Below are positions 10,803 through 34,932 of a stretch of DNA of 34,932 bases, one piece after another. The translations under genes were made by a program, and so were the position numbers. Position 1 is the stretch's first letter. Every line of letters starts with the position of its first letter. The notes under the pieces are model-generated. The model was not told the origin of the DNA. It saw only the letters and a list, made by a program, of their open reading frames with translations, and did no database searches. The DNA comes from Lachnospiraceae bacterium (lineage in GTDB: Bacteria > Bacillota > Clostridia > Lachnospirales > Lachnospiraceae), in assembly GCA_017469405.1 (NCBI GenBank), contig JAFUGL010000038.1, positions 1 through 34,932 on the forward strand, given 5' to 3'.

Positions 10803-10871
10803 TTTAAATTGAAATTTAATTGTTTAAATTGAACAAAAATACTTTAAAAAAGTATTTATATGTGATATAAT
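10803..10871 (+). promoter_or_regulatory. Promoter and operator-like repeats before the YbjQ-type gene
   Basis: A consensus TATAAT -10 (10866-10871) is preceded at 17 bp by TTTAAA (10843-10848) as a weak -35. An inverted repeat AATACTT/AAGTATT (10838-10844, 10850-10856) covers the -35. Just upstream, TTTAAATTGAA occurs twice (10803-10813 and 10823-10833), 20 bp or about two helical turns apart. AT-rich sequence makes chance matches easier, so the operator role is tentative; the promoter is more secure. Confidence 0.55.
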
Positions 10872-10916: not shown

Positions 10917-12014
10917 ATGGGTAATATTTTTGTAACTACAGGCTCAAACATCGAGGGGTATGATATTGTTGAGTATTTGGGTTTTGTTAGTGGAGAGACA
11001 GTTTTAGGTTCCAATTTCTTAAAAGGCTTCGTAGCAGGTGTTACAGAGGCTTCTGATTCTGAAAGTGAAAAGCTTACAGCCAATTTAGAGCAGGTTAATG
11101 GTATTGCTCTTGAAAAACTAAAGAGAGTTGCTGAAAAACAGGGCGCTGATGCGATTATAGGTCTTCAGCTTAATTATACGCAGTTCGCAAATTATTCTGT
11201 TGGTACAATAGCATCCGGAACAGCAGTAAAGCTTGTAAAAAGAGATGTTGTTGAGCAGGTGGTTGCAAAAGACTTATATGTAACTAACTATTACAACAGA
11301 CTTGTTCCAAGACCTGTTAAGGTTATATTGAGCGGAACCAATAAAGCTGTTAAGATATCAGCATGGTTTTACAACTATAACATGGATGACATCAAGGCTA
11401 TAAGAGCTGATGTTGAGCTTACCAATCTTTATGAAGAGAAGCTGCTTCTTAAGGATTTGGATTTTGTATTTGAAAAGGGAAATATTACTCAGATAGAATC
11501 CAATGAAATTGATTGTAAGCTCCCTGCAAAGGATATACTATTAATTAAGGATTCAAAGGTTACTATTTCCAAATATGTTACCAGCCGTGGAGTATTTGCA
11601 TGTAATGATTTACCTATCAATGTTACAATGCCTATGCACAGACTTATCGCTCTTAAGGAAAAGAGAGGTTTGGATGCTGTTGAGAAGTATAAGACAGACG
11701 GTATGGTTTGGACATGTAACTGTGGTTATGTAAATGAGGCAGGTTCTGATGAGTGTGTAATCTGTGCACGTAAGCAGGAGGATATGAAGAGTAATTCCAA
11801 GTTCAATCCTGATGAGATGATTGCAAAGATGCAGACTAAAGAATATGTTATTGAGATTAAAGATGTTCTTATGGAATACATTAAGGATATTGACAGTGAG
11901 TACAGAATGGAACTTCTTGAGATTATGGAATCAGGTTTACAGTACGAGAAGACAAGAGGTAACATGAAGGAAACTGTAATAGAAAAGGTAGAAAAGGTCT
12001 TTGAAGGACATTAA
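10917..12014 (+). CDS. YbjQ-like (UPF0145) protein with RanBP2-type zinc finger
   Basis: A 365-residue soluble protein. Residues 1-105 match the YbjQ/heavy-metal-binding-domain family (VTTGSNIEGYDIVEYLGFVS, then GADAIIGLQLNY). The middle (about 115-245) looks beta-rich and I do not recognise it. At about 262-282 there is a RanBP2-like zinc finger (VWTCNCGYVNEAGSDECVIC). The C-terminal 70 residues are helical and charged. It starts after a GGAGG and is first in a tight group: 30 nt to the TPR protein, then the coiled-coil gene. The zinc finger suggests protein or nucleic-acid binding. The overall function is unknown. Confidence 0.82.
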   Translation: MGNIFVTTGSNIEGYDIVEYLGFVSGETVLGSNFLKGFVAGVTEASDSESEKLTANLEQVNGIALEKLKRVAEKQGADAIIGLQLNYTQFANYSVGTIASGTAVKLVKRDVVEQVVAKDLYVTNYYNRLVPRPVKVILSGTNKAVKISAWFYNYNMDDIKAIRADVELTNLYEEKLLLKDLDFVFEKGNITQIESNEIDCKLPAKDILLIKDSKVTISKYVTSRGVFACNDLPINVTMPMHRLIALKEKRGLDAVEKYKTDGMVWTCNCGYVNEAGSDECVICARKQEDMKSNSKFNPDEMIAKMQTKEYVIEIKDVLMEYIKDIDSEYRMELLEIMESGLQYEKTRGNMKETVIEKVEKVFEGH

Positions 12015-12044
12015 TAATACTATTATGATTTAGAGGTGGCATGT

Positions 12045-14927
12045 ATGGGTTCCGGTCTTAGCATGGCTAGTGTAAACAAAATAAAAGAATTAGCAGCTCA
12101 AAGAGAGTATAGCCTTGCATTAGATATTATTGACAGTCAGGATTTGTCAAAATCTCTTAATCCGCAATTTTTAAAATTATGCGGAGATATATATATAAAA
12201 TCAAAAAGATATGCTGATGCCAGAAATGTATTGGTAAGAGCACATAGTATGGCACCTGAGGCAAAGCGAATAATATTTGCCTTGATAGACCTTTATACTA
12301 AGATGGGTTATAAGGAACTTGTCGATAAGTATTATGAAATTTATATGTATGATGCTGATGAAGAAAGCATTGATACAAAGCAGGTAAAGTATACTTATGA
12401 AAAGTATAATGGGGCTGAGATTGAGAAAATCAGAGATTATATAATACCATATTATATTGATAATATGGATTATGATTGGAGTTTCGAGGCGTATCTTATG
12501 CTGGTTTTGAATGATGATGAGGATGATAAAGAATTATTAAAAGCCTTGATAGATGAGTATTCAGCAACATTTAAAAACAGTGATAATTTAAAGATGATGG
12601 ATTCTATAAAAGATGATAAAGTTATAGCATCCAGTAAATTTTATAATTTCAATAAAGAGATATTATCTGATGATGAAGTCGGACAAAAGATAATTCGTAG
12701 AGAAGAAAAAAAGCAGCTTGAGGTGGATTATGACAGAATAAATCCTGCTGAAGCCACAATTATTGAAGTTGTTGATGATGAAGAAAAGAAGTCAAAAGGT
12801 TTCTTTAGAAGAAAACACAATAATGAAGATTCGGATGGAAATGGAGAAACAGCTTCTGATGATGAAAAATCTGAAAGTGACAGTATAAATGATTTTTCGC
12901 AGAATGTAGATGGATTTTATGAGAATTTAAAGAATAATCAGTCTTCAGATGAAAAAAATGATGATCAGGCTCAAGAAAAGAAATTGGCTGATATTTTCAA
13001 AAAGATTTTTTCAAAAAATAAGAATGAAGATGATCAGAGTAAAAATGATTTAAACGTTGAAGAGCCAAAACCTGATGGACAAGAGCCGGACGCACAGGAA
13101 GAAGCTAAAGAAGCTGAAGTTGAAACTAAGGAAGAGCCGGACGCACAGGAAGAAGCTAAAGAAACTGAAGCCGAAACTAAGGCAGAGCCGGTCGCACAGG
13201 AAGAGGTTAAAGAAACTGAAGCTGAAACTAAGGAAGAGCCGGTCGCACAGGAAGAGGTTAAAGAGACTGAAGCTGATACAGAGTCTTCTAAATATGATGA
13301 AATAGATATAAAAGAAGAAATGGTAGTGTCCGTAAATGATGAACCTTCGGATGTGCAGGAAAAAATAAATAAGGATGAAGAAGATAATATGCAAGGCAGC
13401 GGACGTTCGATTGATATTAATAATGAAGATGATTTTTCAGAAGATGATTTTGATGACTTTTCAGAAGATGATTTTGATGAGTTTGCCGCTGAATCGGAGA
13501 CTATAGAAGAACTTAGTAAAAAAGAAAATGGTGAAGAAGTTAAAGATATAGATAATGAGGCTTCATCTAAAGCGATTAATAATACCACTGTTCTTTTTGA
13601 AGATGTTGATTTATCTTTTGATGAAGATGAGGATGATTTTGAAGTTGATGATTTCTCAGATTCGAAGCAAGATGATTTTGATTTTATGCCAGAAAGTGAG
13701 ACTTTCGAAGAGTTAACAGATTCTGTTTCAAATGAAAAGATTAATATTGATGAGTTTGAAGAAGCATATAATATAGAAAAAGAAACAGAACCGGAAACTG
13801 AGTCTGAAGAGACAGAACCTGAAACGGAAGAGTTTGAGGAAGAGCCTGAAACAGAAGAATTTGAGGAAGAACCTGAAACAGAAGAGTTTGAGGAAGAGCC
13901 TGAAACAGAAGAATTTGAGGCAGAGTCTAAGACAGAAGAATTTGAGGCAGAGTCTGAAACAGAAGAGTTTGAGGCAGAGTCTGAAACAGAAGAGTTTGAG
14001 GCAGAGTCTGAAACAGAAGAGTTTGAGGAAGAGCCTGAGACAGAAGAGTTTGAGGCAGAGTCTGATACAGAAGAGTTTGAGGAAGAGCTTGAGACAGAAG
14101 AGTCTGAGGAAGAGCCTGAAACAGAAGAGTTTGAGGAAGAGTCTGAGGATAAGCCTGAATCAGAAATACCTGAATCAGAGTCTGAAACAGAAGAGTTTGA
14201 GGAAGAGCTTAAGACAGAAGAGTCTGAGGAAGAGCCTGAGACAGAAGAGTCTGAGGAAGAGCCTGAGACAGAAGAGTCTGAGGAGGAGTCTGAGGAAGAG
14301 CCTGAGACAGAAGAGTTTGAGGAAGAGCCTGAGACAGAAGAGTTTGAGGAAGAGCCTGAGACAGCAGAGTTTGAGGCAGAGTCTGAAACAGAAGAGTCTG
14401 AGGCAGAACCTGAAACAGAAGAGCTTGAGGAAGAGCCTGAGATAAAAGAGTCTGAAATGGTTTCAGAATATGAGCAAATAGAAGATGAAACCGATTATTC
14501 AGAGGAAGACATTTCGGAGTTATACAGACTTGAAAGAGAAAAGATTAAAAAGGAAAATAAAGAAAAGAAACTTGATTTTCCTGTATTCAGATCTTCGTTG
14601 TTCCCTAATTATCATAATGATGTTCCTGAAGTGGAAAATAATTTCCGGGAAATTATGAATGACAGTAAGAACAAAATAGATGAGAATTTTGAGAAGGAAG
14701 CTAGATTGCAAAGAGAGACAGAAGAATTGCTTGCTTCGTTGGGAATAAAAATAAGTAGTTCTTCAAGCGCTGATGTCAAGGAAACCGGAAAAGCAATGAA
14801 TAATGAAGTTAAATATGAAACTTCAAAGGAAACCGATACAAAAATTTCCAGAAGAGAATTAAAAGAATCACTTAAGATTGATTCTGAAAAAAAGAATATT
14901 CTTAGGAAAATGAAAGAATACAGATAG
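12045..14927 (+). CDS. TPR protein with very acidic Glu-rich repeat region
   Basis: A 960-residue protein. The ATG at 12045 follows GAGGTGG; a GTG at 12036 inside that RBS is rejected. Residues about 5-180 are TPR-like helical hairpins (YSLALDIID, FLKLCGDIYIKSKRYADARN, YTKMGYKELVDKYYEIY). A charged linker follows, then four 17-residue repeats (about 346-415), two related Asp/Phe-rich segments (DDFSEDDFDEF and DDFEVDDFSD, each before ESETxEEL), and about 220 residues of 9-residue EEFEEEPET-type repeats. The last 140 residues are mixed-charge coiled coil with a basic end. No signal peptide or membrane helix is seen, so it is cytosolic. The strongly negative middle may act as a spacer or bind the Lys-rich product of the next gene. 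The family is unknown. Confidence 0.85.
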   Translation: MGSGLSMASVNKIKELAAQREYSLALDIIDSQDLSKSLNPQFLKLCGDIYIKSKRYADARNVLVRAHSMAPEAKRIIFALIDLYTKMGYKELVDKYYEIYMYDADEESIDTKQVKYTYEKYNGAEIEKIRDYIIPYYIDNMDYDWSFEAYLMLVLNDDEDDKELLKALIDEYSATFKNSDNLKMMDSIKDDKVIASSKFYNFNKEILSDDEVGQKIIRREEKKQLEVDYDRINPAEATIIEVVDDEEKKSKGFFRRKHNNEDSDGNGETASDDEKSESDSINDFSQNVDGFYENLKNNQSSDEKNDDQAQEKKLADIFKKIFSKNKNEDDQSKNDLNVEEPKPDGQEPDAQEEAKEAEVETKEEPDAQEEAKETEAETKAEPVAQEEVKETEAETKEEPVAQEEVKETEADTESSKYDEIDIKEEMVVSVNDEPSDVQEKINKDEEDNMQGSGRSIDINNEDDFSEDDFDDFSEDDFDEFAAESETIEELSKKENGEEVKDIDNEASSKAINNTTVLFEDVDLSFDEDEDDFEVDDFSDSKQDDFDFMPESETFEELTDSVSNEKINIDEFEEAYNIEKETEPETESEETEPETEEFEEEPETEEFEEEPETEEFEEEPETEEFEAESKTEEFEAESETEEFEAESETEEFEAESETEEFEEEPETEEFEAESDTEEFEEELETEESEEEPETEEFEEESEDKPESEIPESESETEEFEEELKTEESEEEPETEESEEEPETEESEEESEEEPETEEFEEEPETEEFEEEPETAEFEAESETEESEAEPETEELEEEPEIKESEMVSEYEQIEDETDYSEEDISELYRLEREKIKKENKEKKLDFPVFRSSLFPNYHNDVPEVENNFREIMNDSKNKIDENFEKEARLQRETEELLASLGIKISSSSSADVKETGKAMNNEVKYETSKETDTKISRRELKESLKIDSEKKNILRKMKEYR
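13083..13286 (+). repeat. Four tandem 51-bp coding repeats
   Basis: GAGCCGG recurs at 13083, 13134, 13185 and 13236, a strict 51-bp period, encoding 17-residue units of the type EPDAQEEAKETEAETKE. The first two units have D-A and E-A where the last two have V-A and E-V, so the array seems to have grown by pairwise duplication. Confidence 0.92.
13783..14450 (+). repeat. Long array of 27-bp Glu-rich coding repeats
   Basis: About 24 units of 27 bp encode ETEEFEEEP variants, with F/S/L alternating at the fifth position and EEEP/EAES at the end. The strand is extremely purine-rich (GAGGAAGAG type). An insertion with KPESEIPESES breaks the array near 14150-14180, and one unit carries an extra SEEE. 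The array is prone to copy-number change and to assembly errors. Confidence 0.92.
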
Positions 14928-14964
14928 ATCTGACATAAATAGTTACCGAAAGGGGGATAATTAA

Positions 14965-17900
14965 GTGGCTATTGATCAAAGAGAAGCATTGATTGCTGCT
15001 GTTAGAGCACAGGTCGAAAAGGAAAAAGCTGCTAAAGCTGCAAAGCTAAAAAAAGAACAGGAAGCTGTTAAACTAGCCGGTGTTAATATTGTAGATGAAA
15101 AATCTGACGATAATAAACCGAAATATAAGACTTTATCAGCTGAGGATTTAGCTAAAATTGAAGAGAAGAAAAGACGTAAGTATGCAGCTGAGCATGGAAT
15201 TGACTTAGAAGCAGCAGAGGCTAAGGCTGCAGAAGAAGCTAAGGCTGCAGAAGAAGCTAAGGCTGCGGAAGAAGCTAAGAAAGCTGAAGAGGCCAAGAAG
15301 AAGGCAGAAGAAGCCAAGAAAGCTGAAGAGGCCAAGAAGAAGGCAGAAGAAGCCAAGAAAGCTGAAGAGGCCAAGAAGAAGGCAGAAGAAGCTAAAAAAG
15401 CAGAAGAAACCAAGAAAGCAGAATCAGAAGGATTGGGTATGAGTGTCGGCATCCAGCCTGATAAGTCCGGTAAATCTTTATCCGATGTCGGAACTAAGGA
15501 TGATGAAGGACTTGGAAAGAAAGCATCCGGTGGTCTTGGTCTTAAACTTAAATTGAGTGATGATAAGACAGAAGATAAAAAATCATCTGCTGCAAAAGAT
15601 AGTAAGCCAAAGGTTGATGAAAAGGCAAAATTACGTCCTGAAAAACTTGTTGGTGGAAGTGATACAGTCAAGGTAATTGAAGATGATAGTGTTACTGATG
15701 AAGAAGGTACTGTAACTAAAGATGGTAATACTACTGTAATTTCAGATGGTGCAGGATGGAAGGCGTCTGAGGAATCAAAGAAACAGACCAATCCTGATGA
15801 TATTATAAATATAGTTCCTAATAGAGCTGCACCTTCAAGTGATGTCAAGAATATGTATGATCTTGATGATGACGATGAAGATGCTCTTGGAGCTGAGATA
15901 TCGAAGCTTGCAGATTACAATGATGGTAAAAAGTCTGCTGAGAATAATGTTGAAGAGGCAGTCGGGGAAGAGGCTAAAAAACAGGATAAAACTGATATTG
16001 CCAATAAAAAACTTGCTGAGGAAGAAGCAAGAAAGAAAGCTGCTGCAGAAGCCGCTAAGAAGAAGACTGGTGATGCTTCCGGCAAGAAGGTATCTGCTGC
16101 TGAGGAAGCTTTAAAGAAGGCTGAAGCTCAGAGAAATAAATTAAAAGAGGCTGAAAGAAGCGCTGATGAACGTGAGAGACGTATAGCAGAGGCTCAGGCG
16201 AAGATAAGAGCTGAGGAGGCTGCTAAGAAGAGAGCTGAAGAGGCAGAAAAGAAGAAAGCAGAAGAGGCTGCAAAGCGTAAGGCTCTCGAAGAAGAACGTA
16301 AAAAAGCGGCTGAAGAAGCAAGACGTAAGGCAGAAGAAGAAGCTAGAAAGAAAGCTAAGGCAGAAGCTCAAAAGGCGGTTGATGAGGCTAAAAAGAAAGC
16401 TTCTGAAATTGAAAAGAGACTTGCTGATGCTAAAAAGGCTGAAGAGACAGCTGCAAAGACTACAGCTGATTTAAATAAGAAACTTGAAGATAATTCCAAT
16501 AAACGTGCCGAAGAAGTTAAAAAGGCTAAAGAGCAGGAAGATAGTCTTAATAAAGCTAAAGAAGAGGCAAAAGCAAAGGCTGAAGAAGCTGCTAAGAAAA
16601 AAGCAGATGAACGAGCTAAGAAGAGAGCTGATTTTGAAGCTAAAGCAAAGGCTGACAAAGATGCCAGAGCAAAGCTTCTTGAGGATGCCAAGAAGGCTGA
16701 GGATGAAGCAAAGAAGGGCGTCGATGCTGCCAAGGCAGGCGTAGAAGCAGCAAAGAAAGCAGTTGAGGATGCCAAGAAGAAGGTTGAAGAAGCTGCTAAA
16801 CAGTTAGAAGCTGCTAAAGCTGCACAGGCTGATGAAGAAAAGAAAGTTACCGAGGCAGATAAAAAGGTAGAAGAAGCTAATAAGAAGGTAACAGAAGAAG
16901 CTAAGAAGGTTGAAGAAACCAATAAGAAGATAGAAGCTGAAGAAAAAGCTGCAATAGAAGCAGAGAAGAAGCTTAAATCAGAAGAGGATGCTGCTGCAAA
17001 GGTAGATGCTGACAGCATTAAGAAAGCTGAATTTGCTGCAGTTGTTAAGCTTGATGAGTTTATCAAAGAAAATGCAGAAAAAGATAAGGCTAGAAAGGCC
17101 GAGGAAGATGCAGATAAGAAGGCTGTAGAAGAAGCAAAGAAGGCTGAAGAAGACGCTAAGAAGGTTGTTGCTGATATTGAAAAAGAGGTTGATGCAGTCA
17201 ACAAGGAAATTGCTGAAGCTGAAAAAGCAGTAAGTGCTGCTGATACTCTTAAGCTTGATATCAAGACCTTTAATGCAGGTAGACTTCCTATCGCAGCATC
17301 ATATCTTGTTAAGTATACAAAGGCAGAAGTGCTTGGTGATAGAATTGTATCCGTATTTGAAGAGGTTGCAAAAGCTGAAGGTGCATCAAGAAATATGCTT
17401 TTGTTAGGTGAGCACGGCTTTGGTCTTACAAGTGTAGGTGAGGATTTTGCAAGAAGTTTCTATGACATGGGAATTTGTAAGGCAAAGACCATTGCTAAGA
17501 TAAAAGCTTCAGCTCTTAATAAGGTTAAGCTTGCAGATGCAATGACAAAGCTTAAAGGTGGATGTCTGGTAGTGGAGAGCTCAGGACTTATAGCAGCAGA
17601 CAGATTGAGAGAGCTTCTTACATTAACTGCTCCTGAAAATAACGATATTATCATGATTCTTACAGGTGAGCAGGATTCTATCAAGAGACTTCTCAAGGAT
17701 GTCAAAGAGGCTAATGGTAAGTTTGAGCACCAGATAAAGATTAACAGCATTAAGAATGATGATATGATAAGCATCGCTAAGGGTTACATAGAACAAAGAG
17801 GCTTCAAGGCTGATGCTGATATCGATGGAGTAATAAAAAATGCACTTATGGCTATGGAATCCGGTAACATTGACAGAATGTTAAAGTTTATCGATGACGG

Positions 17901-17976
17901 AATACTTAAGTGTGAGGAAAGAGAGAAAGCAAAGGGAAGTAATGACCAGAAATTACTTGCTGCAGATTTTAAATAG
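14965..17976 (+). CDS. Coiled-coil protein with degenerate AAA+-like C-terminal domain
   Basis: A 1003-residue cytosolic protein starting at GTG, after AAAGGGGG. Residues about 80-155 and 340-760 are almost pure Ala/Lys/Glu heptad sequence and predict long single helices or coiled coils, separated by a disordered stretch. Residues about 765-990 look like an AAA+ domain of SpoVK/CbxX shape: a strand then GEHGFGLTS (815-823) where a Walker A would be GxxGxGKT/S, and CLVVES (867-872) where a Walker B would be hhhhDE. The Lys is replaced by Leu821 and the Asp-Glu by Glu871-Ser872, so ATP hydrolysis is unlikely. It follows the acidic TPR gene by 37 nt. A structural or scaffold role, perhaps binding the acidic partner, is inferred. 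The out-of-frame and antisense frames here are composition artefacts. Confidence 0.83.
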   Translation: MAIDQREALIAAVRAQVEKEKAAKAAKLKKEQEAVKLAGVNIVDEKSDDNKPKYKTLSAEDLAKIEEKKRRKYAAEHGIDLEAAEAKAAEEAKAAEEAKAAEEAKKAEEAKKKAEEAKKAEEAKKKAEEAKKAEEAKKKAEEAKKAEETKKAESEGLGMSVGIQPDKSGKSLSDVGTKDDEGLGKKASGGLGLKLKLSDDKTEDKKSSAAKDSKPKVDEKAKLRPEKLVGGSDTVKVIEDDSVTDEEGTVTKDGNTTVISDGAGWKASEESKKQTNPDDIINIVPNRAAPSSDVKNMYDLDDDDEDALGAEISKLADYNDGKKSAENNVEEAVGEEAKKQDKTDIANKKLAEEEARKKAAAEAAKKKTGDASGKKVSAAEEALKKAEAQRNKLKEAERSADERERRIAEAQAKIRAEEAAKKRAEEAEKKKAEEAAKRKALEEERKKAAEEARRKAEEEARKKAKAEAQKAVDEAKKKASEIEKRLADAKKAEETAAKTTADLNKKLEDNSNKRAEEVKKAKEQEDSLNKAKEEAKAKAEEAAKKKADERAKKRADFEAKAKADKDARAKLLEDAKKAEDEAKKGVDAAKAGVEAAKKAVEDAKKKVEEAAKQLEAAKAAQADEEKKVTEADKKVEEANKKVTEEAKKVEETNKKIEAEEKAAIEAEKKLKSEEDAAAKVDADSIKKAEFAAVVKLDEFIKENAEKDKARKAEEDADKKAVEEAKKAEEDAKKVVADIEKEVDAVNKEIAEAEKAVSAADTLKLDIKTFNAGRLPIAASYLVKYTKAEVLGDRIVSVFEEVAKAEGASRNMLLLGEHGFGLTSVGEDFARSFYDMGICKAKTIAKIKASALNKVKLADAMTKLKGGCLVVESSGLIAADRLRELLTLTAPENNDIIMILTGEQDSIKRLLKDVKEANGKFEHQIKINSIKNDDMISIAKGYIEQRGFKADADIDGVIKNALMAMESGNIDRMLKFIDDGILKCEEREKAKGSNDQKLLAADFK
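15283..15399 (+). repeat. Three tandem 39-bp repeats in the coiled-coil gene
   Basis: GCTGAAGAGGCCAAGAAGAA starts at 15283, 15322 and 15361, period 39 bp, encoding KAEEAKKKAEEAK-type units. Three 18-bp KAAEEA units precede it. Confidence 0.9.
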
Positions 17977-17984
17977 TAATTGAA

Positions 17985-18040
17985 AAAAACAGTGCCGATG
18001 TATATAATTAATTGTGTTATATGCATTGGCACTGTTTTTG
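17985..18040 (+). terminator. Hairpin between the coiled-coil gene and the MreB paralogue
   Basis: AAAAACAGTGCC-GATG-TATATA (17985-18006) pairs with TATATGCATTGGCACTGTTTTT (18018-18039), nearly perfect with one G-U, followed by a weak T tract inside the arm. It can act as a full or partial terminator; no clear separate promoter for the next gene is visible, so partial read-through to the MreB paralogue is possible. Confidence 0.75.
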
Positions 18041-18070
18041 TGCTATAAAAAAATACAGAGGATGATAAAA

Positions 18071-19078
18071 ATGGTTAATATCGATATAGGAATTGATTTG
18101 GGAACCAGCAACACAGTTATATACATAAAGGACAAGGAAATCGTAGTCAATCAACCATCAGTTGTAGCGTACGAAGTCAAGACAAAAAAGATAATAGCTG
18201 TTGGTGTTAAGGCTAAAAAAATGATTGGAAAAACTCCTGAAGGAATAGATGTGGTTTGTCCGATAGTTAAGGGAGTTATCTCTGATTATACACTTACAGA
18301 GCGAATGATAAAGGCATATGTGAGAAATGCAATAGAGCAAAGAAAAATATGGGGTAAACCGACTATTTGCGTTTGTGTTCCGAGTGGGGTAACGCAGGTT
18401 GAAAAAAAGGCGGCGTGTGATGCTGTACTAAGAACCGGAGCAAGAAAGGTATATGTTTTGGAAGAACCTTTTGCAGCGGCTATAGGAACCAATGTGGACA
18501 TCGATGGACCTAAAGGTCATATGTTTGTTGATATAGGCGGAGGTACTACAGATATTGCTGTTGTTACAAAGGGAGCGATAAGCATAAGTAAGTCGGTAAA
18601 GGTTGCAAGCGGTGATTTTGATGAGGCAATTATTAAATATTTAAGAAGAAAATACAGCGTTCAGCTTGGCAATATGTCTGCTGAACAGTTAAAGATAGAG
18701 ATTGGATCGGTTTATCCGCGAGAACAGGATGCCGTAGGCTATGCAAAGGGCAAGGAACTTATGAAAGGACTTCCGACGAAGCTTCCTATACATTCTTCTG
18801 AGATAGAAGAGGCTACCGGAGAGGTTGCGGACATGATAGTTGAAGCAATTAAGCAGGTTCTCGAGCAGACGCCTCCTGAACTGGTAAATGATATAGCTGA
18901 ATTTGGTATAGTTTTGTCCGGTGGCGGAAGCAAAATATACGGTATGGATAAGCTGATAGAGGAAAAAACGGGTGTAAGAGTAAGAAAAATGGAAAACCCG
19001 GAGCTTGTTGTAGCTACAGGCGCGGGAACAGCAAGAAAATATGTAGCTGATGAAGTGATTATTACATCCGATGTGTAA
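18071..19078 (+). CDS. MreB-family actin-like protein, solitary paralogue
   Basis: A 335-residue actin-fold protein starting MVNIDIGIDLGTSNT. The ATG follows GAGG 9 nt upstream. MreB hallmarks are present: phosphate-1 loop GIDLGTSNT, ICVCVPSGVTQVEKKA, the EEPFAAAIG segment, phosphate-2 MFVDIGGGTTDIAVV, FDEAIIKYLRRKY, the IEIGSVYP block and adenosine motif GIVLSGGGSKIYGMD. ATP binding should be intact. The loop that inserts in membranes in MreB (often SLF) reads KIWGKP, so it is altered but still hydrophobic. No mreC, mreD or rodA follows; downstream is the butyrate operon, upstream the coiled-coil gene. It could be an Mbl/MreBH-type cell-shape protein or the filament partner of the upstream group. 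Confidence 0.9.
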   Translation: MVNIDIGIDLGTSNTVIYIKDKEIVVNQPSVVAYEVKTKKIIAVGVKAKKMIGKTPEGIDVVCPIVKGVISDYTLTERMIKAYVRNAIEQRKIWGKPTICVCVPSGVTQVEKKAACDAVLRTGARKVYVLEEPFAAAIGTNVDIDGPKGHMFVDIGGGTTDIAVVTKGAISISKSVKVASGDFDEAIIKYLRRKYSVQLGNMSAEQLKIEIGSVYPREQDAVGYAKGKELMKGLPTKLPIHSSEIEEATGEVADMIVEAIKQVLEQTPPELVNDIAEFGIVLSGGGSKIYGMDKLIEEKTGVRVRKMENPELVVATGAGTARKYVADEVIITSDV

Positions 19079-25741: not shown

Positions 25742-26467
25742 TTACGCCTCCGTATCTTTTTCGATTATCGTATCAAAGCATAAGAGTAGCAAGCGGAGAA
25801 TTATTGGTACAAATAAAACTATAAATATTATTGATAATATAAGTCTGTCTTTAAATGATCTCATTTTATCGATAAATAATATGAGAGTTAAAAATGATAA
25901 TAGGAGTATGAGTAATATGTTTAGCCTAAAGTAAATTATAGTGTCTCTGCGTATTATGTGCTGACTGCCGATAGACATCAAAATAGTTCCGGTAAATACG
26001 ATAATCATTTCTGTTATCAGTGTAATGATAAAATTTGTGCTTTTACTCCATTCGTTATTAAATGGTATACTTTTAAAAAGGCAGAGCATAAATCCGGAGA
26101 ATAAAAGTAAAGTGCCTAAAAAAGAAAATGATATGTCCTTTACTATACATGCTTTTGATAGTTTTTTGTTTCGCCAGTTGTGTATGCGTATACTATTATC
26201 ATTTTCACGATATATTTTATATCGTTCATTTTTTAAGCCCAGCAATAGTTTGTATTCTTCGTTGTATTTGTTTTGGTTTGATATAACATATGTGTATTCT
26301 TGTGAATTAAAAATTATAGTATTTATAATTTTGTTATCGTCCTCCAAGACTTTTATTTCATAGTCTTCTTTGGTGAGGGTTATTTCATTATAAGCTTCAT
26401 TGTAATTTGTTTCGCCTTCAGCTTTCTTTATATTCATATATATATCTTTAAGTGAATTAAGCTTCAT
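25742..26467 (-). CDS. Unknown four-helix membrane protein
   Basis: A 241-residue protein with an N-terminal soluble region of about 105 residues, rich in Lys, Asn, Tyr and Glu, followed by four membrane helices at about 110-130, 146-166, 178-198 and 208-228. The RBS is AGAGGAT. No known family was recognised. It is the middle gene of a three-gene minus-strand operon, 63 nt after the single-span protein and 2 nt before the HicB-like gene. Codon choice is more AT-rich than in the neighbouring butyrate genes, which may mean acquisition, but that contrast may only reflect expression level. Confidence 0.75.
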   Translation of the reverse strand: MKLNSLKDIYMNIKKAEGETNYNEAYNEITLTKEDYEIKVLEDDNKIINTIIFNSQEYTYVISNQNKYNEEYKLLLGLKNERYKIYRENDNSIRIHNWRNKKLSKACIVKDISFSFLGTLLLFSGFMLCLFKSIPFNNEWSKSTNFIITLITEMIIVFTGTILMSIGSQHIIRRDTIIYFRLNILLILLLSFLTLILFIDKMRSFKDRLILSIIFIVLFVPIILRLLLLCFDTIIEKDTEA

Positions 26468-26530
26468 TTGAATTATCCTCTTGTTTAATATTTTGCTTTT
26501 CAGATTACACAGGACGAAGTTTGTGTGGTT

Positions 26531-27334
26531 TTATTTGTTTTCTTCAATAAATTTTCTTACTTCGTCAGGGTTGTTTTCGATTAAAAGCGGTTCGACGTTG
26601 TTTTTGGTGGAGTAAAGCATGGGACTTCCGATGCTTTCTTCAAGATAAAAACTTTCGTCTATAGGATAGTAATCGTGCACTATGCCGAAACCTGTTGTTG
26701 AAAACAAATAATATGAAAAATATAATTTTGCCGTTATGCTTTCGGATATTTCCTTAGGCAGACTGTTTCTTACAGCGTCAGTGCTTGTGGCAGTATCGGT
26801 TTTCCATGCCTTTGATATAGCATCGGTTATTGCGTCTTTATCTTCGCCGGCATAGGTGATGATATCATCTATTGTAAGTGTGTGTAATGTAATGTATTCT
26901 TTTAGTGCATCAAGTCCTTCTGTATTGTATTCTTCGCCGTCAATTACTATGTTGTTGCCGTGAAACTGAAAGGTTATTCTGTCGGCAGGGTAGGTTGGTA
27001 TATATGTTATGTCAAAGCTTTTTTCATCTTCAGAGTTATTTTTGACTTTTGATTTAATTTTTATATCACCAAGAAGCTTATATATTTCTTCGTTTGTCTC
27101 GCCAAATATATACATGCCGTATAGTATATCCTGCTCGTAGTCGTAATAGTTATTGAGTGTTCCATAGTAATAAGAACCGTCCTCGGAAGTTGGATTTACG
27201 GTTTTGTATGAGTCAAGTTCGCGCAGATAGTGATTGTTGTATTTATTTTGAGTTGTAATATATATAGCAAAAAATATTATCAATATAAGAATTACAGCGA
27301 GTATAGATAAGAATTTTATTTTTTGTTTTTTCAT
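26531..27334 (-). CDS. Unknown membrane-anchored extracytoplasmic protein
   Basis: A 267-residue protein with a basic N-terminus and one hydrophobic helix (about residues 8-26), likely an uncleaved anchor; the rest is hydrophilic and would lie outside. There is no lipobox Cys. No family was recognised. It is the first gene of the minus-strand operon, with RBS AAAGAGG and a good promoter 48 nt upstream. With the next gene it may form a two-protein membrane complex. No enzymatic motif is visible. Confidence 0.75.
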   Translation of the reverse strand: MKKQKIKFLSILAVILILIIFFAIYITTQNKYNNHYLRELDSYKTVNPTSEDGSYYYGTLNNYYDYEQDILYGMYIFGETNEEIYKLLGDIKIKSKVKNNSEDEKSFDITYIPTYPADRITFQFHGNNIVIDGEEYNTEGLDALKEYITLHTLTIDDIITYAGEDKDAITDAISKAWKTDTATSTDAVRNSLPKEISESITAKLYFSYYLFSTTGFGIVHDYYPIDESFYLEESIGSPMLYSTKNNVEPLLIENNPDEVRKFIEENK

Positions 27335-31733: not shown

Positions 31734-34700
31734 ATGAATTTTAAGGACAAATTAATTAAAAGGTTAGTTGATGTCGGTAAAAAACATAGGATATTGGTAT
31801 ATCCTATGCTCATTCTTGTTGCAATAATAAGTGCAATTTCTCATGCTGTATATTGGGGAAAAGGCAATGGCAGAAAGCTTGTTGCTTCTGTTGCTATAGT
31901 TGCGCTTTTGATTACACAATCTCTCTTCCTTACATCATCAGCGGATATGGGCGACAGTCCCGAGCCTGATGCAGGAGCGACCGTGTCGGACGAAACTCCT
32001 GTTGATGTAGACTCACCGGATGGAGCCATAATAGATGAAGGTTCGGTTGATGAGGCAGTTTTAAATGATGAAGCAGCAGAGGATTCTGTTTTAGATGAAG
32101 GCGAAAGCTTAGATGCTGCAAATGCAGATAATAATGATATTGCAGATGATAATATGACTGATGGAACTCTGAATGCCGAAGGAGAAAGTGATAATCCGGA
32201 TGGCTCGGAATTGCCTGAAGAATTGTTAAATGATGATATAGATGTATTGGGCGCTGAAGGAGATGAGGGTACTGAAGAAACCCCTATTTCAAATGGCGTT
32301 AAATATTATATGTATTATACTGTTAACGGTTCAGCTGCAACTTCATATCTTGGTGGTTCAGCTGTTAATGAAACAGGTGAGGCAAATCAGTGGTTTTCTT
32401 CGGCAGATGCAAAGGCAGCATGGGAATTTGGTGATTATAAAGGAATATCGGTATCGGGTCCGTTCTTTGATACAGCAGGAACACCCGCAGATAATTCTGC
32501 TGAAGCATTTGCATCTGATACAGCTACAAAAGATGGCGATGGAAATGTAAATGTTTATTTTATAGCTTCAAGAGTAAGCTATGATGTGGTTATTACCAGT
32601 GCAGGAACTACTTTGACAGCTACAGATACTGTCCCTTATGTATCAAGTGATTTAGCTATTGCTGGTTCTGCGTATACTATCAAAAGTGCAGAAGATTATG
32701 GATTGGTTAATAAAGGATATACATTTAACGGTTTGAGCGGAAGCTATATCTCAGGTGATAAGGATGCTGAAGTTACTGTCAATGTTGCATCATTAGTTTC
32801 TCAGATTGATGCTGAAGCAGTATGGACACCTCAGCCTTTCAAAGTTAAATGTTATGTTACTTCCGATGCTATGGAGGATAAGGTTACACTTGCAGATCCT
32901 TCAAATACATATATAGAGGTTAATTGTATATATGGTCAGGATGTAAGTTTACCAAATGCATCAACAGTTTCGGGATATGCTACAAGTAAAGGTTATTATT
33001 TCTCAGGCTGGCAGCTTGGAGGAAATGAATATACAAGTATAAATGCATCTGAGCTTGCGGAATTTGCCGAAGGTTCCAATGATGTAAATGAATATGGTAA
33101 AGATTTGGTTGCGGTTTGGAAATACAGAAACGTAACACCAAGTCTTGTGAAAAACGCATCAAGTACAGGTAAGACTACTGTTGAAGGTCTTAGTATTACC
33201 GCTGAGTATGGAGATACGGTAAATGTTGATGTGCTTACAAATTATGTTGAGGCAGGAGATGGATCAACATCTGTAAATAATTTCTCATATGAGATTACTT
33301 CGGGTAATGGCGATTTGGCTGCACTCGGACTAAATATATCTACAACTACTGATTCAGGAACAGGTAAGGTAGTAGGATTTAATATCAATGGTACTTTAAA
33401 TAATATAAATACAGATTGGGCAAATGTTGTAATTACAATTACAGATGAGAATAAGCTTGATTCTGCAGGAAAGGACAGCTTTACTATCAAAGTTAAGTCC
33501 AATAAAAAGCAGGTTACTATAGTTCCATCATCTATAAAGAATGGTGACAAGGCTGTAACAAAGGCATATGACGGTGATGCCAAGATGACAGTTTCAGACA
33601 GATGTGATGTAGAAACCAGGATTGGAAGTGATGAGGTATATGCTAAGTTCAGTACTGAGGCAGAGGCTGATAACGAAAAAGCAGGTACCGGAAAAGCACT
33701 TACCATCAAAAATGTAACCTTGGATGGTGCCAAGGCAGGATTCTATGAACTTTTAGATGACTCAGGTGCTGTAGTGGATGGAGGAAATATTACTATCCCG
33801 GGTATTGCAACCATAACTCAAGGTTCAATTGCTCTTGGAATTGAACTTGTGGAAGGAGAAAGCGATAGTATATTATTTGGTCAGGCAACACCAAAATACA
33901 GACTTTATATAACTAATCCGGAAAATCTTGCTGAATCTGATATAGCAGATTATGAAGCTGACAATGAGACATTTATAAAGAATAAACTTGGATTTACAGG
34001 AGAGTATAGTTGTGCAAGAACTCTTTACAGCAATCCGGGAGAATATTCGATTTATCCTGTTATTGATACTTCAAAAGCAAATTACCTCTCAACATCACCT
34101 TCTGCAAAATTCACTGTAAGCAGAGAGTCAGGTAATGGACATTATGAATTACAGAATAGTCCGGTAAACGGTATATATGCTGATTTAAAGATAATTGCAA
34201 CAAATGATTATGATAAAATCAGATTATTAGATGATGGTGAGGGTGATATAGCTGAGTCTATGTCAAAAGCCAGTGCAACCGCATTATTTGACAATGTTGT
34301 GTCTGTACCTAATATGCAGGATGGAACTGTAAGAATACAGATGCTTAACTCTTCAACAGGTGCAATTACTGAGATAGTTACACTTGAACATATCAGCGTA
34401 GATAGAAATTGTCCAAGTCTTGAAAGCTTTAGTGTTACACCGGCTGAAAAGTTTAATGAATTTAATTTTGGTACATACTATCATGCACAGGAAGTGGATG
34501 GTATAAAGGTTGAAGCCGCAACATTAAAATTCACATATTCATCAACGGGTAGTGAGTGTGATAAATTCTACTATGAATTCCTGGATGAAGATGGTAATGT
34601 TCGTGGTAATATAACACATGAAGTAAAGATGACAAAGGATGAGTCAACAGGATTATATCATGCAACTATTACTATAGGAACAGGAACTTATGGTAAATTA

Positions 34701-34932
34701 AGAGTATATGCAACAAATCTTGTTGGTACACCTTCAGATGTTAGTTACATTAAATTAAATGAAAGTCTTTCCAAAATGACTGATTATTATGAGTGGATGG
34801 TAGAAAACAGTATCTCTGCTTCAGATATTAAGGTCGTTGATTCAAAAGGAAATACAGCAGTATCGGGAGTATGGTATAATTCACTTTCTTACAGTACTAC
34901 CGCAACAGATAATGATAGTGGAATTCAGTATA
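31734..34932 (+). CDS. Giant repeat-type surface protein, 5' part
   Basis: The frame is open for 1066 codons to the window end; the stop is outside. The N-terminus has two hydrophobic stretches: residues about 19-40 (ILVYPMLILVAIISAISHAV) and 50-70 (VASVAIVALLITQSLFL, then TSSA), the second a likely signal peptide with cleavage near SSA-D. A very acidic Asp/Glu/Ala region follows to about residue 185. Then come beta-rich repeats: a Listeria-Bacteroides-type segment (GYYFSGWQLGG) near 425, and a YDG-type adhesin segment (TKAYDGDAKMTVSDR) near 615. It is probably exported and cell-surface attached, binding host or fibre surfaces; the anchor is not visible. The RBS GAGGTGAAGAG precedes the ATG. 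Confidence 0.88.
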   Translation, partial: MNFKDKLIKRLVDVGKKHRILVYPMLILVAIISAISHAVYWGKGNGRKLVASVAIVALLITQSLFLTSSADMGDSPEPDAGATVSDETPVDVDSPDGAIIDEGSVDEAVLNDEAAEDSVLDEGESLDAANADNNDIADDNMTDGTLNAEGESDNPDGSELPEELLNDDIDVLGAEGDEGTEETPISNGVKYYMYYTVNGSAATSYLGGSAVNETGEANQWFSSADAKAAWEFGDYKGISVSGPFFDTAGTPADNSAEAFASDTATKDGDGNVNVYFIASRVSYDVVITSAGTTLTATDTVPYVSSDLAIAGSAYTIKSAEDYGLVNKGYTFNGLSGSYISGDKDAEVTVNVASLVSQIDAEAVWTPQPFKVKCYVTSDAMEDKVTLADPSNTYIEVNCIYGQDVSLPNASTVSGYATSKGYYFSGWQLGGNEYTSINASELAEFAEGSNDVNEYGKDLVAVWKYRNVTPSLVKNASSTGKTTVEGLSITAEYGDTVNVDVLTNYVEAGDGSTSVNNFSYEITSGNGDLAALGLNISTTTDSGTGKVVGFNINGTLNNINTDWANVVITITDENKLDSAGKDSFTIKVKSNKKQVTIVPSSIKNGDKAVTKAYDGDAKMTVSDRCDVETRIGSDEVYAKFSTEAEADNEKAGTGKALTIKNVTLDGAKAGFYELLDDSGAVVDGGNITIPGIATITQGSIALGIELVEGESDSILFGQATPKYRLYITNPENLAESDIADYEADNETFIKNKLGFTGEYSCARTLYSNPGEYSIYPVIDTSKANYLSTSPSAKFTVSRESGNGHYELQNSPVNGIYADLKIIATNDYDKIRLLDDGEGDIAESMSKASATALFDNVVSVPNMQDGTVRIQMLNSSTGAITEIVTLEHISVDRNCPSLESFSVTPAEKFNEFNFGTYYHAQEVDGIKVEAATLKFTYSSTGSECDKFYYEFLDEDGNVRGNITHEVKMTKDESTGLYHATITIGTGTYGKLRVYATNLVGTPSDVSYIKLNESLSKMTDYYEWMVENSISASDIKVVDSKGNTAVSGVWYNSLSYSTTATDNDSGIQY

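Follow-up and report, generated by a model that had tools for sequence, protein, structure and literature searches.

In EccA proteins, tetratricopeptide repeats (TPR) are followed by an AAA domain of the CbbX type, CbbX itself being the red-type Rubisco activase. For Corynebacterium, a study on MksBEF and DivIVA describes a condensin that is placed by a cell-pole scaffold (PMC10123090). Here, we analyzed a stretch of 34,932 nucleotides from a Lachnospiraceae bacterium (assembly GCA_017469405.1, contig JAFUGL010000038.1, positions 1 to 34,932; referred to as the window), in which four genes had been proposed by a first-pass annotation to form an undescribed cytoskeletal or scaffold group. They encode a YbjQ-domain protein, a TPR protein with an acidic linker (TPRac), a Lys/Ala/Glu protein ending in a degenerate AAA+ domain (KAE), and an MreB paralogue (MreB2). 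Our analysis showed that TPRac and KAE each represent one half of a single family protein, composed of a TPR head, a long acidic linker, and a CbbX/EccA-like AAA domain.

One family protein encoded by two genes

The relationship of the two genes was recognized in a sample of 150 Lachnospiraceae genomes in which each genus was represented once. Of these, 123 gave a match to the AAA end of KAE and 124 to the TPR end of TPRac; 146 matched at least one of the ends and 101 both. In 92 of the 101, both ends are located in the same open frame (defined by same contig and same open-frame length, strand disregarded, with one row per genome), and the resulting one-chain proteins follow the order TPR, long acidic linker, AAA. 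Six genomes carry the ends in two neighboring genes, namely the window genome (G000) as well as G002, G040, G070, G106, and G129. G009, with two frames on one contig, and G086 and G137, with the ends on different contigs, were counted neither as one-chain nor as split; for G045, which has two copies, the copy on contig C121 entered the count. Given how common one-chain proteins are, fission is a simpler assumption than fusion. The one-chain protein of G131 hosts a near-copy of the KAE N-terminal segment in its middle and is placed by the AAA tree within the split clade (clade support 100/100, position of G131 therein weak); here, a re-fusion may have taken place. Some further one-chain proteins (e.g., L050 and L051) contain a short charged-helix stretch within the linker.

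In a class-wide draw of 291 genomes, scores above 170 bits were reached by 9 of the 10 family members and by none of the 281 others, the best of which scored 84.9 bits. Many weak matches of the AAA head outside the family lie in frames of ~310-390 aa, which we take to be SpoVK-like AAA+ ATPases. Inspection of 27 loci for the neighbors of the one-chain gene (glgB in 13, rsmA in 12, aconitase in 8) revealed no common function. Neither the gene group nor the one-chain protein appeared in the titles and abstract openings of the literature found, a body of literature with subscription papers mostly outside its scope.

The features of the locus in window coordinates are as follows:

10843..10871, + strand: promoter-like TTTAAA-17-TATAAT before ybjQ, 10/12 match, with TG ahead of the second hexamer (consensus scan, not evidence of function)
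10917..12014, + strand: protein of 365 aa with YbjQ domain and zinc finger (PF01906, 82.3 bits; cysteines kept in 19/19 aligned rows)
12045..14927, + strand: TPRac, first half of the split protein, with TPR head, acidic repeat linker, and conserved C-terminus
12756..14645, + strand: acidic linker with repeats within TPRac, residues 241-870 (frame of 963 aa), net -227 (charge count)
14965..17976, + strand: KAE, second half, with conserved N-terminal segment, charged single-helix-like rod, and pseudo-AAA+ C-terminus
14965..15063, + strand: conserved N-terminal segment of KAE, docking-helix candidate (close copy inside the G131 one-chain protein)
15991..17244, + strand: charged-helix rod of KAE, residues 343-760, with 4 Pro or Gly inside (i+3/i+4 charge-pair statistics)
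17257..17973, + strand: pseudo-AAA+ domain of KAE, CbbX/EccA type (57-row profile A1 against PDB)
17407..17430, + strand: degenerate Walker A motif GEHGFGLT, Lys replaced by Leu (alignment)
17980..18008, + strand: promoter-like TTGAAA-17-TATAAT, 11/12 match, overlapping the hairpin (consensus scan)
17985..18039, + strand: 24-pair hairpin of terminator form between KAE and mreB2 (folding and scan)
18071..19078, + strand: MreB2, clade-specific MreB of 335 aa on the Mbl side of the family (Pfam, NCBIfam, trees)

The four-gene block on one strand stands where the first-pass annotation had placed it, including the gaps of 30 nt (to the ATG at 12045) and 37 nt, and its domain calls were borne out as well. 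The first protein carries a YbjQ domain (82.3 bits against a cut-off of 23) and a Cys-X-Cys...Cys-X2-Cys finger with all four cysteines invariant in the 19 aligned rows, presumably similar to the RanBP2-type finger. The second combines a TPR profile match with a strongly acidic middle (residues 241-870, net -227), and the third ends in an AAA-like domain with Walker A and Walker B both defective. The fourth is an MreB above the Pfam cut-off of MreB_Mbl without mreCD beside it, preceded by the predicted hairpin. The assumption that the two repeat proteins bind each other by opposite charges had to be rejected, because KAE is charge-balanced (net -6) compared with a net charge of -238 for TPRac.

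In respect to the TPR head, window TPRac alone gave Pfam TPR matches below their cut-offs, and a 48-row profile headed by it matched TPR structures at 4.3e-35; the head of the family protein retrieves generic TPR matches only. Between its N-terminus and AAA head, KAE displays the pattern of a putative rigid, charged single helix, with 127 acid-to-base pairs at i+3/i+4 compared with 61.6 in shuffles (z 11.4) and 28 like-charge pairs compared with 122.4. The relative of KAE in G040 extends over 502 residues free of Pro and Gly (z 17.3); the pattern is weaker in G002 (z 3.4). The C-terminus of TPRac and the N-terminus of KAE are segments conserved across the genus, the TPRac end being less clear in G040, G070, G129, and G106, and both are candidates that may rejoin the halves. 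Unlike in other species, TPRac of locus L187 (G466; 663 aa) comes to an abnormal end within its repeats, presumably owing to a frameshift or an assembly error there.

The AAA head is recognizable by profile. KAE of the window alone retrieved zero Pfam or NCBIfam matches at E 0.1, and no Pfam family exceeded its cut-off at the AAA end of the window protein and four one-chain relatives, nor did any NCBIfam family for the window protein. Profile A1 (57 rows, window sequence first) matched CbbX (2.4e-22) and EccA1 (3.7e-12, third among the solved sequences found) in the PDB. Our survey of the Walker motifs covered 58 non-duplicate AAA domains from the window, named relatives, and retrieved loci. 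Of these, 42 keep the Walker A Lys, all among the 48 domains outside the window clade; the 16 losses comprise 10/10 sequences of the window clade (five of the window's genus as well as G040, G070, G106, G002, and G131) and six scattered others. It is also lost in 28/28 other genomes of the genus and in G129, which was examined separately. The sequence GEHGFGLT in the window does not match the consensus GxxxxGK[T/S]. The Asp-Glu of the Walker B consensus hhhhDE, found in CbbX, is present in 0/58 domains, Glu-Lys being the commonest pair at this position (18/58) and Glu-Ser the pair of the window. Judged from these motifs, the usual binding and hydrolysis of ATP are presumably both absent from the head of KAE. 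It is nonetheless 49-98% identical between the window and 28 other genus genomes, with no internal stops. As a separate observation, contig C38 of the window genome (L053:1222-5592) encodes a protein of 1456 aa in which two AAA domains belonging to this profile group are combined with an M41 (FtsH-type) peptidase domain at the C-terminus.

MreB2 and the synteny of the locus

MreB2 matches the full-length MreB_Mbl domain of Pfam with 382.8 bits (cut-off 27). Among the NCBIfam models, NF010539 is exceeded (378.2, cut-off 293), TIGR00904 is just missed (359, cut-off 365.75), and MamK with 89.2 bits does not reach its cut-off of 400. Judged by eye from the ribosome-binding site, the ATG at 18071 is the more likely start over the GTG at 18014. 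Three kinds of MreB occur in these genomes, i.e., the mreCD-linked MreB, Mbl (neighbored by flagellar-rod genes in the window genome), and MreB2. In the tree, MreB2 groups with Mbl, far from mreCD-linked MreB (100/100), ruling out that it is the ordinary mreB moved to another place. It represents a clade of its own apart from Mbl (98/83 in one tree, 90/79 in a second), including the sole MreB of G002. MreB2 was found in 6/6 split genomes and in 0/22 of the best-matching genomes outside the clade. A widespread occurrence was thereby ruled out for these 22 next-ranked genomes (including G067 and G008), all having Mbl by tree, a statement that covers them and not the lower-ranked ones. In 16 out of 20 of those 22, flhO/P-like genes lie beside Mbl.

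An mreB in front of mreC is found in none of the seven clade genomes examined (G000, G040, G070, G129, G106, G131, and G002). Outside the clade, it is present at 45 of 50 mreC loci, which were the 30 best-scoring (30/30) and 20 low-scoring ones (15/20) out of 134 and not a random draw. In G070, radC was not recognized before mreC. On contig C28 of the window genome (L076:7898-15304), the genes radC-mreC-mreD-pbp2-minC-minD-rodA follow each other without mreB. MreB2 is the sole full-length MreB in two of eight MreB2 genomes searched: G456, a one-contig genome of the window's genus in which it adjoins KAE, and G002, in which both are on different contigs. In combination with the loss of mreB before mreC, MreB2 is therefore probably a working MreB, not a spare.

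Within the window's genus, the AAA head was detected above 200 bits in 29 of 37 genomes, window included; seven of the other eight are 64-87% complete and one (G467) is 97% complete. Among the 28 genus genomes besides the window, the order thyA-dfrA-ybjQ-TPR-KAE-mreB2 is present at 21/21 fully covered loci, and KAE-mreB2 at 7/7 loci cut by contig ends. G040, G070, and G129 from other genera also show all four genes in order, with thyA-dfrA upstream and thl downstream kept as well. Hence, the four-gene order, whose recurrence in related genomes had been put forward as the check on the grouping, is conserved. Since thyA-dfrA and thl are kept alongside, synteny alone singles out neither ybjQ nor mreB2. 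In G002, the TPR-KAE pair, thyA-ybjQ, and mreB2-ygiQ are located on three different contigs; in G106, ybjQ is three genes away from the TPR gene, and YbjQ was matched in 48 of 150 genomes, G131 not being one of them. YbjQ is probably only a neighbor outside the core unit, and MreB2 adjoins KAE in most genomes that have it. Thus, the proposed group of four is retained in part: TPRac-KAE is the true unit and MreB2 a clade-wide companion, with ybjQ as the weakest member and the gene order embedded in a general synteny. A scaffold role is plausible for the gene group, a cytoskeletal role unproven.

The hairpin before mreB2 consists of a 24-pair stem followed by T's (-33 kcal/mol, 0/200 shuffles as low, z -8.6). 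It has the form of an intrinsic terminator and is overlapped by a promoter match (11/12), and because of both, mreB2 of the window may have its own promoter. A scan of the region counted 4 terminators compared with 3.9 in shuffles, which is near chance, and 33 promoters compared with 21.5 (sd 4.1), somewhat above; the case for the terminator rests on the 24-pair stem and not on these totals. In two sister species (G452 and G462; loci L208 and L209), KAE and mreB2 are practically contiguous. An Rfam search of the window gave zero matches.

The block is flanked by dfrA on one side (thyA and dfrA by Pfam) and by butyrate genes on the other, the latter presumably thl-crt-hbd-bcd-etfB-etfA from the look of their translations. 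A radical-SAM gene, which we take to be YgiQ-like, follows mreB2 at 21 of 28 genus loci and also where mreB2 is away from KAE (L044:14522-16456, L077). It is missing in the window, with thl directly after mreB2. Elsewhere in the window, a large open frame of 1066 aa (31734-34931) runs off the end and looks repetitive and of surface type, and two genes of 241 and 267 aa on the minus strand (25742-27334) gave no match over the Pfam cut-offs.

The link to JetABC and the weighing of explanations

A second genomic context was found for the one-chain gene. Defining strong JetC by the PADLOC JetC3 group at a score of at least 990 bits, 22 of the 150 family genomes carry one; some match at E 0.001 is present in 104, mostly weak and partial. 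In 14 of the 22, the TPR-AAA gene is located downstream of jetC on the same strand, 11 times directly (including G015 with a 1.2-kb gap) and three times with one gene between. Upstream of jetA, these 14 loci show dnaX-ybaB-recR in nine cases and other genes in one, the stretch being too short in four. The eight genomes counted as unlinked are five split ones, G131 (7.7 kb away), and G092 and G115 (different contigs). JetD_C was found on the jetC contig in 0/22 genomes, with the sensitivity of PF09983 for type III JetD untested and jetC of G115 reaching the contig end; it is present in 6/22, always off the jetC contig. Nine genera (G008, G094, G017, G042, G061, G047, G125, G014, and G096; L123-L130, L133) thus show jetABC behind dnaX-ybaB-recR without jetD on the contig, and this position suggests a housekeeping rather than a defence condensin.

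The window genome retains jetABC (C56), and the pair lies apart from the jet locus in each of the five split genomes that have strong JetC. The gene following jetC in split genomes is not rsmA, as Pfam assigned radical SAM twice and metallophosphatase once. An anti-phage defence function of the window genes was likewise rejected, given that PADLOC returned nothing for TPRac or KAE and a single weak match for YbjQ (E 0.018). The co-occurrence of JetC and TPR-AAA (Fisher p = 1) is uninformative, because the TPR-AAA protein is near-universal.

We consider the pair best explained as a split, non-hydrolysing tether that acts with the MreB2 elongation machinery and whose ancestral client lay in chromosome organization, an account to which we give an even chance. 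The two chains would work together as one long tether, with the TPR head holding a client, the acidic linker and charged rod giving a reach of tens of nanometres, and the dead AAA head being a binding or oligomerising module; the end segments of TPRac and KAE may rejoin the halves. The ancestral client would most likely be found in chromosome organization (JetABC condensin, replication-repair operon). In the window clade, the tether would likely act with the MreB2 elongation machinery, MreB2 most likely serving MreC/MreD/PBP2/RodA in place of the lost mreB. The reach, the rejoining, and the contact with MreB2 or JetABC are steps that we infer.

Several observations weigh against this account. 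Between KAE and mreB2 of the window lie a terminator-like hairpin and a promoter match, and the linkage of both genes sits within a general synteny. The window clade is one evolutionary event, and 6/6 does not represent six independent cases; therefore, the coincidence of MreB2 with the split pair is companionship and does not prove contact. Within this clade, G131 has the one-chain form and only an Mbl, and mreB is missing before mreC at 5/50 loci of other genera too, thus not being special to the clade. With the Walker A Lys kept in 42/58 domains and an acid at the second Walker B position in 4/58 relatives, the wider family may still bind ATP and a few members perhaps hydrolyse it. On the side of the ancestral client, the 11 genomes with weaker JetC (123-190 bits) show 0/11 near a TPR-AAA gene. 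Most one-chain genomes lack strong JetC (strong JetC in 22/150, either end in 146/150), and therefore JetABC is not the only client. The jet-linked sequences do not form one clade, requiring five changes on the AAA tree; spread over several branches, they indicate a link that is either old or arose more than once.

The chief rival takes TPRac-KAE as a split accessory of chromosome organization, a partner of the jetD-less JetABC or of replication and repair, with MreB2 and YbjQ as mere syntenic neighbors. The position after jetC in 14/22 strong-jetC genomes, with dnaX-ybaB-recR upstream in 9 of the 14, and the retention of jetABC in the window genome speak for it, as do the synteny that thyA-dfrA and thl share with mreB2 and the hairpin and promoter match before the latter. 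However, none of the five split genomes that carry strong JetC has the pair at the jet locus, the weaker JetC types are unlinked, the split form and MreB2 coincide in 6/6 sampled genera, and KAE and mreB2 are practically contiguous in G452 and G462; we regard this reading as possible, though doubtful. Unlikely in our view is the bolder variant in which a housekeeping JetABC condensin without jetD has the one-chain TPR-pseudo-AAA protein as its dedicated fourth partner in this family. In the window clade, this partner would have been cut in two, freed from the condensin locus, and set beside the replacement MreB of the clade, physically bridging a condensin-linked scaffold and a bacterial actin.

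The original model of all four proteins, YbjQ-zinc finger included, in one cytoskeletal or scaffold assembly with the repeat proteins bound by opposite charge could draw on the short gaps of 30 and 37 nt and on the order kept at 21/21 fully covered genus loci and in G040, G070, and G129. The balanced charge of KAE, the separation of YbjQ, which in G002 accompanies thyA and shares no contig with TPR-KAE and in G106 is three genes off, and the position of G131 outside the YbjQ-matching genomes render it improbable. A TPR-AAA chaperone like EccA, serving a secretion system and degenerate in the window clade, would fit the shared domain order and the rank of EccA1 among the solved matches. Among its neighbors at the inspected loci, which were named only in part, no secretion gene was noticed, Walker B Asp-Glu is present in 0/58 domains, and the linker is hundreds of residues long, so that we see very little chance for such a function. 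Equally remote appears a decaying gene without a job, with split and Walker loss as marks of relaxed selection: chain lengths vary, L187 ends abnormally in the repeat, and six further Walker A losses lie outside the clade, but the pseudo-AAA domain is preserved without stops at 49-98% identity across 28 other genus genomes, and the chain ends are strongly conserved.

Lachnospiraceae are a major family of gut and rumen, and a large protein matched at one end or the other in 146/150 of its sampled genera is without an over-cut-off family for its AAA end in Pfam (window and four one-chain relatives) or NCBIfam (window). The existence of split and one-chain forms makes the question of the partner testable, both for the client of the TPR head and for what allowed the ATPase to die. 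In addition, the locus suggests that mreB was naturally replaced by a different MreB, and genomes left with the replacement alone offer a clean setting for asking what an MreB needs in order to act with MreCD. In parallel, the jetD-less JetABC behind dnaX-ybaB-recR provides a lead on the kinship of plasmid-defence and chromosome-organizing condensins.

Comparison with known systems

In 11 genomes, jetC is directly followed by a relative of the window pair, which provides a link to Wadjet type III/MksBEF (JetABC; PMC10586767). The window genes themselves include no Jet subunit (PADLOC search of YbjQ, TPRac, and KAE; MreB2 being an MreB by Pfam). In contrast to Wadjet (JetABCD), jetD is not beside jetABC in the 22 strong-jetC genomes, with jetC of G115 at a contig end. 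The arrangement of MksBEF and DivIVA in Corynebacterium is an analogy only.

EccA1, the TPR-AAA+ protein of ESX-1, shares the sequence of TPR and CbbX-type AAA with the window family (profile match 3.7e-12). The two domains of the latter are hundreds of residues apart, however; in the window, they are even divided between two chains, and its catalytic motifs have disappeared. CbbX is the best sequence match of the KAE AAA domain (2.4e-22) and differs by IDEA at Walker B, where the window family has mostly IIEKA or alike, the window clade being also without the Walker A Lys. MreB2 resembles MreB/Mbl in its full-length MreB_Mbl domain and groups with Mbl. It differs from them as a separate clade, with neither mreCD nor an flhO/P-like gene seen beside it, and by its place mostly next to KAE.

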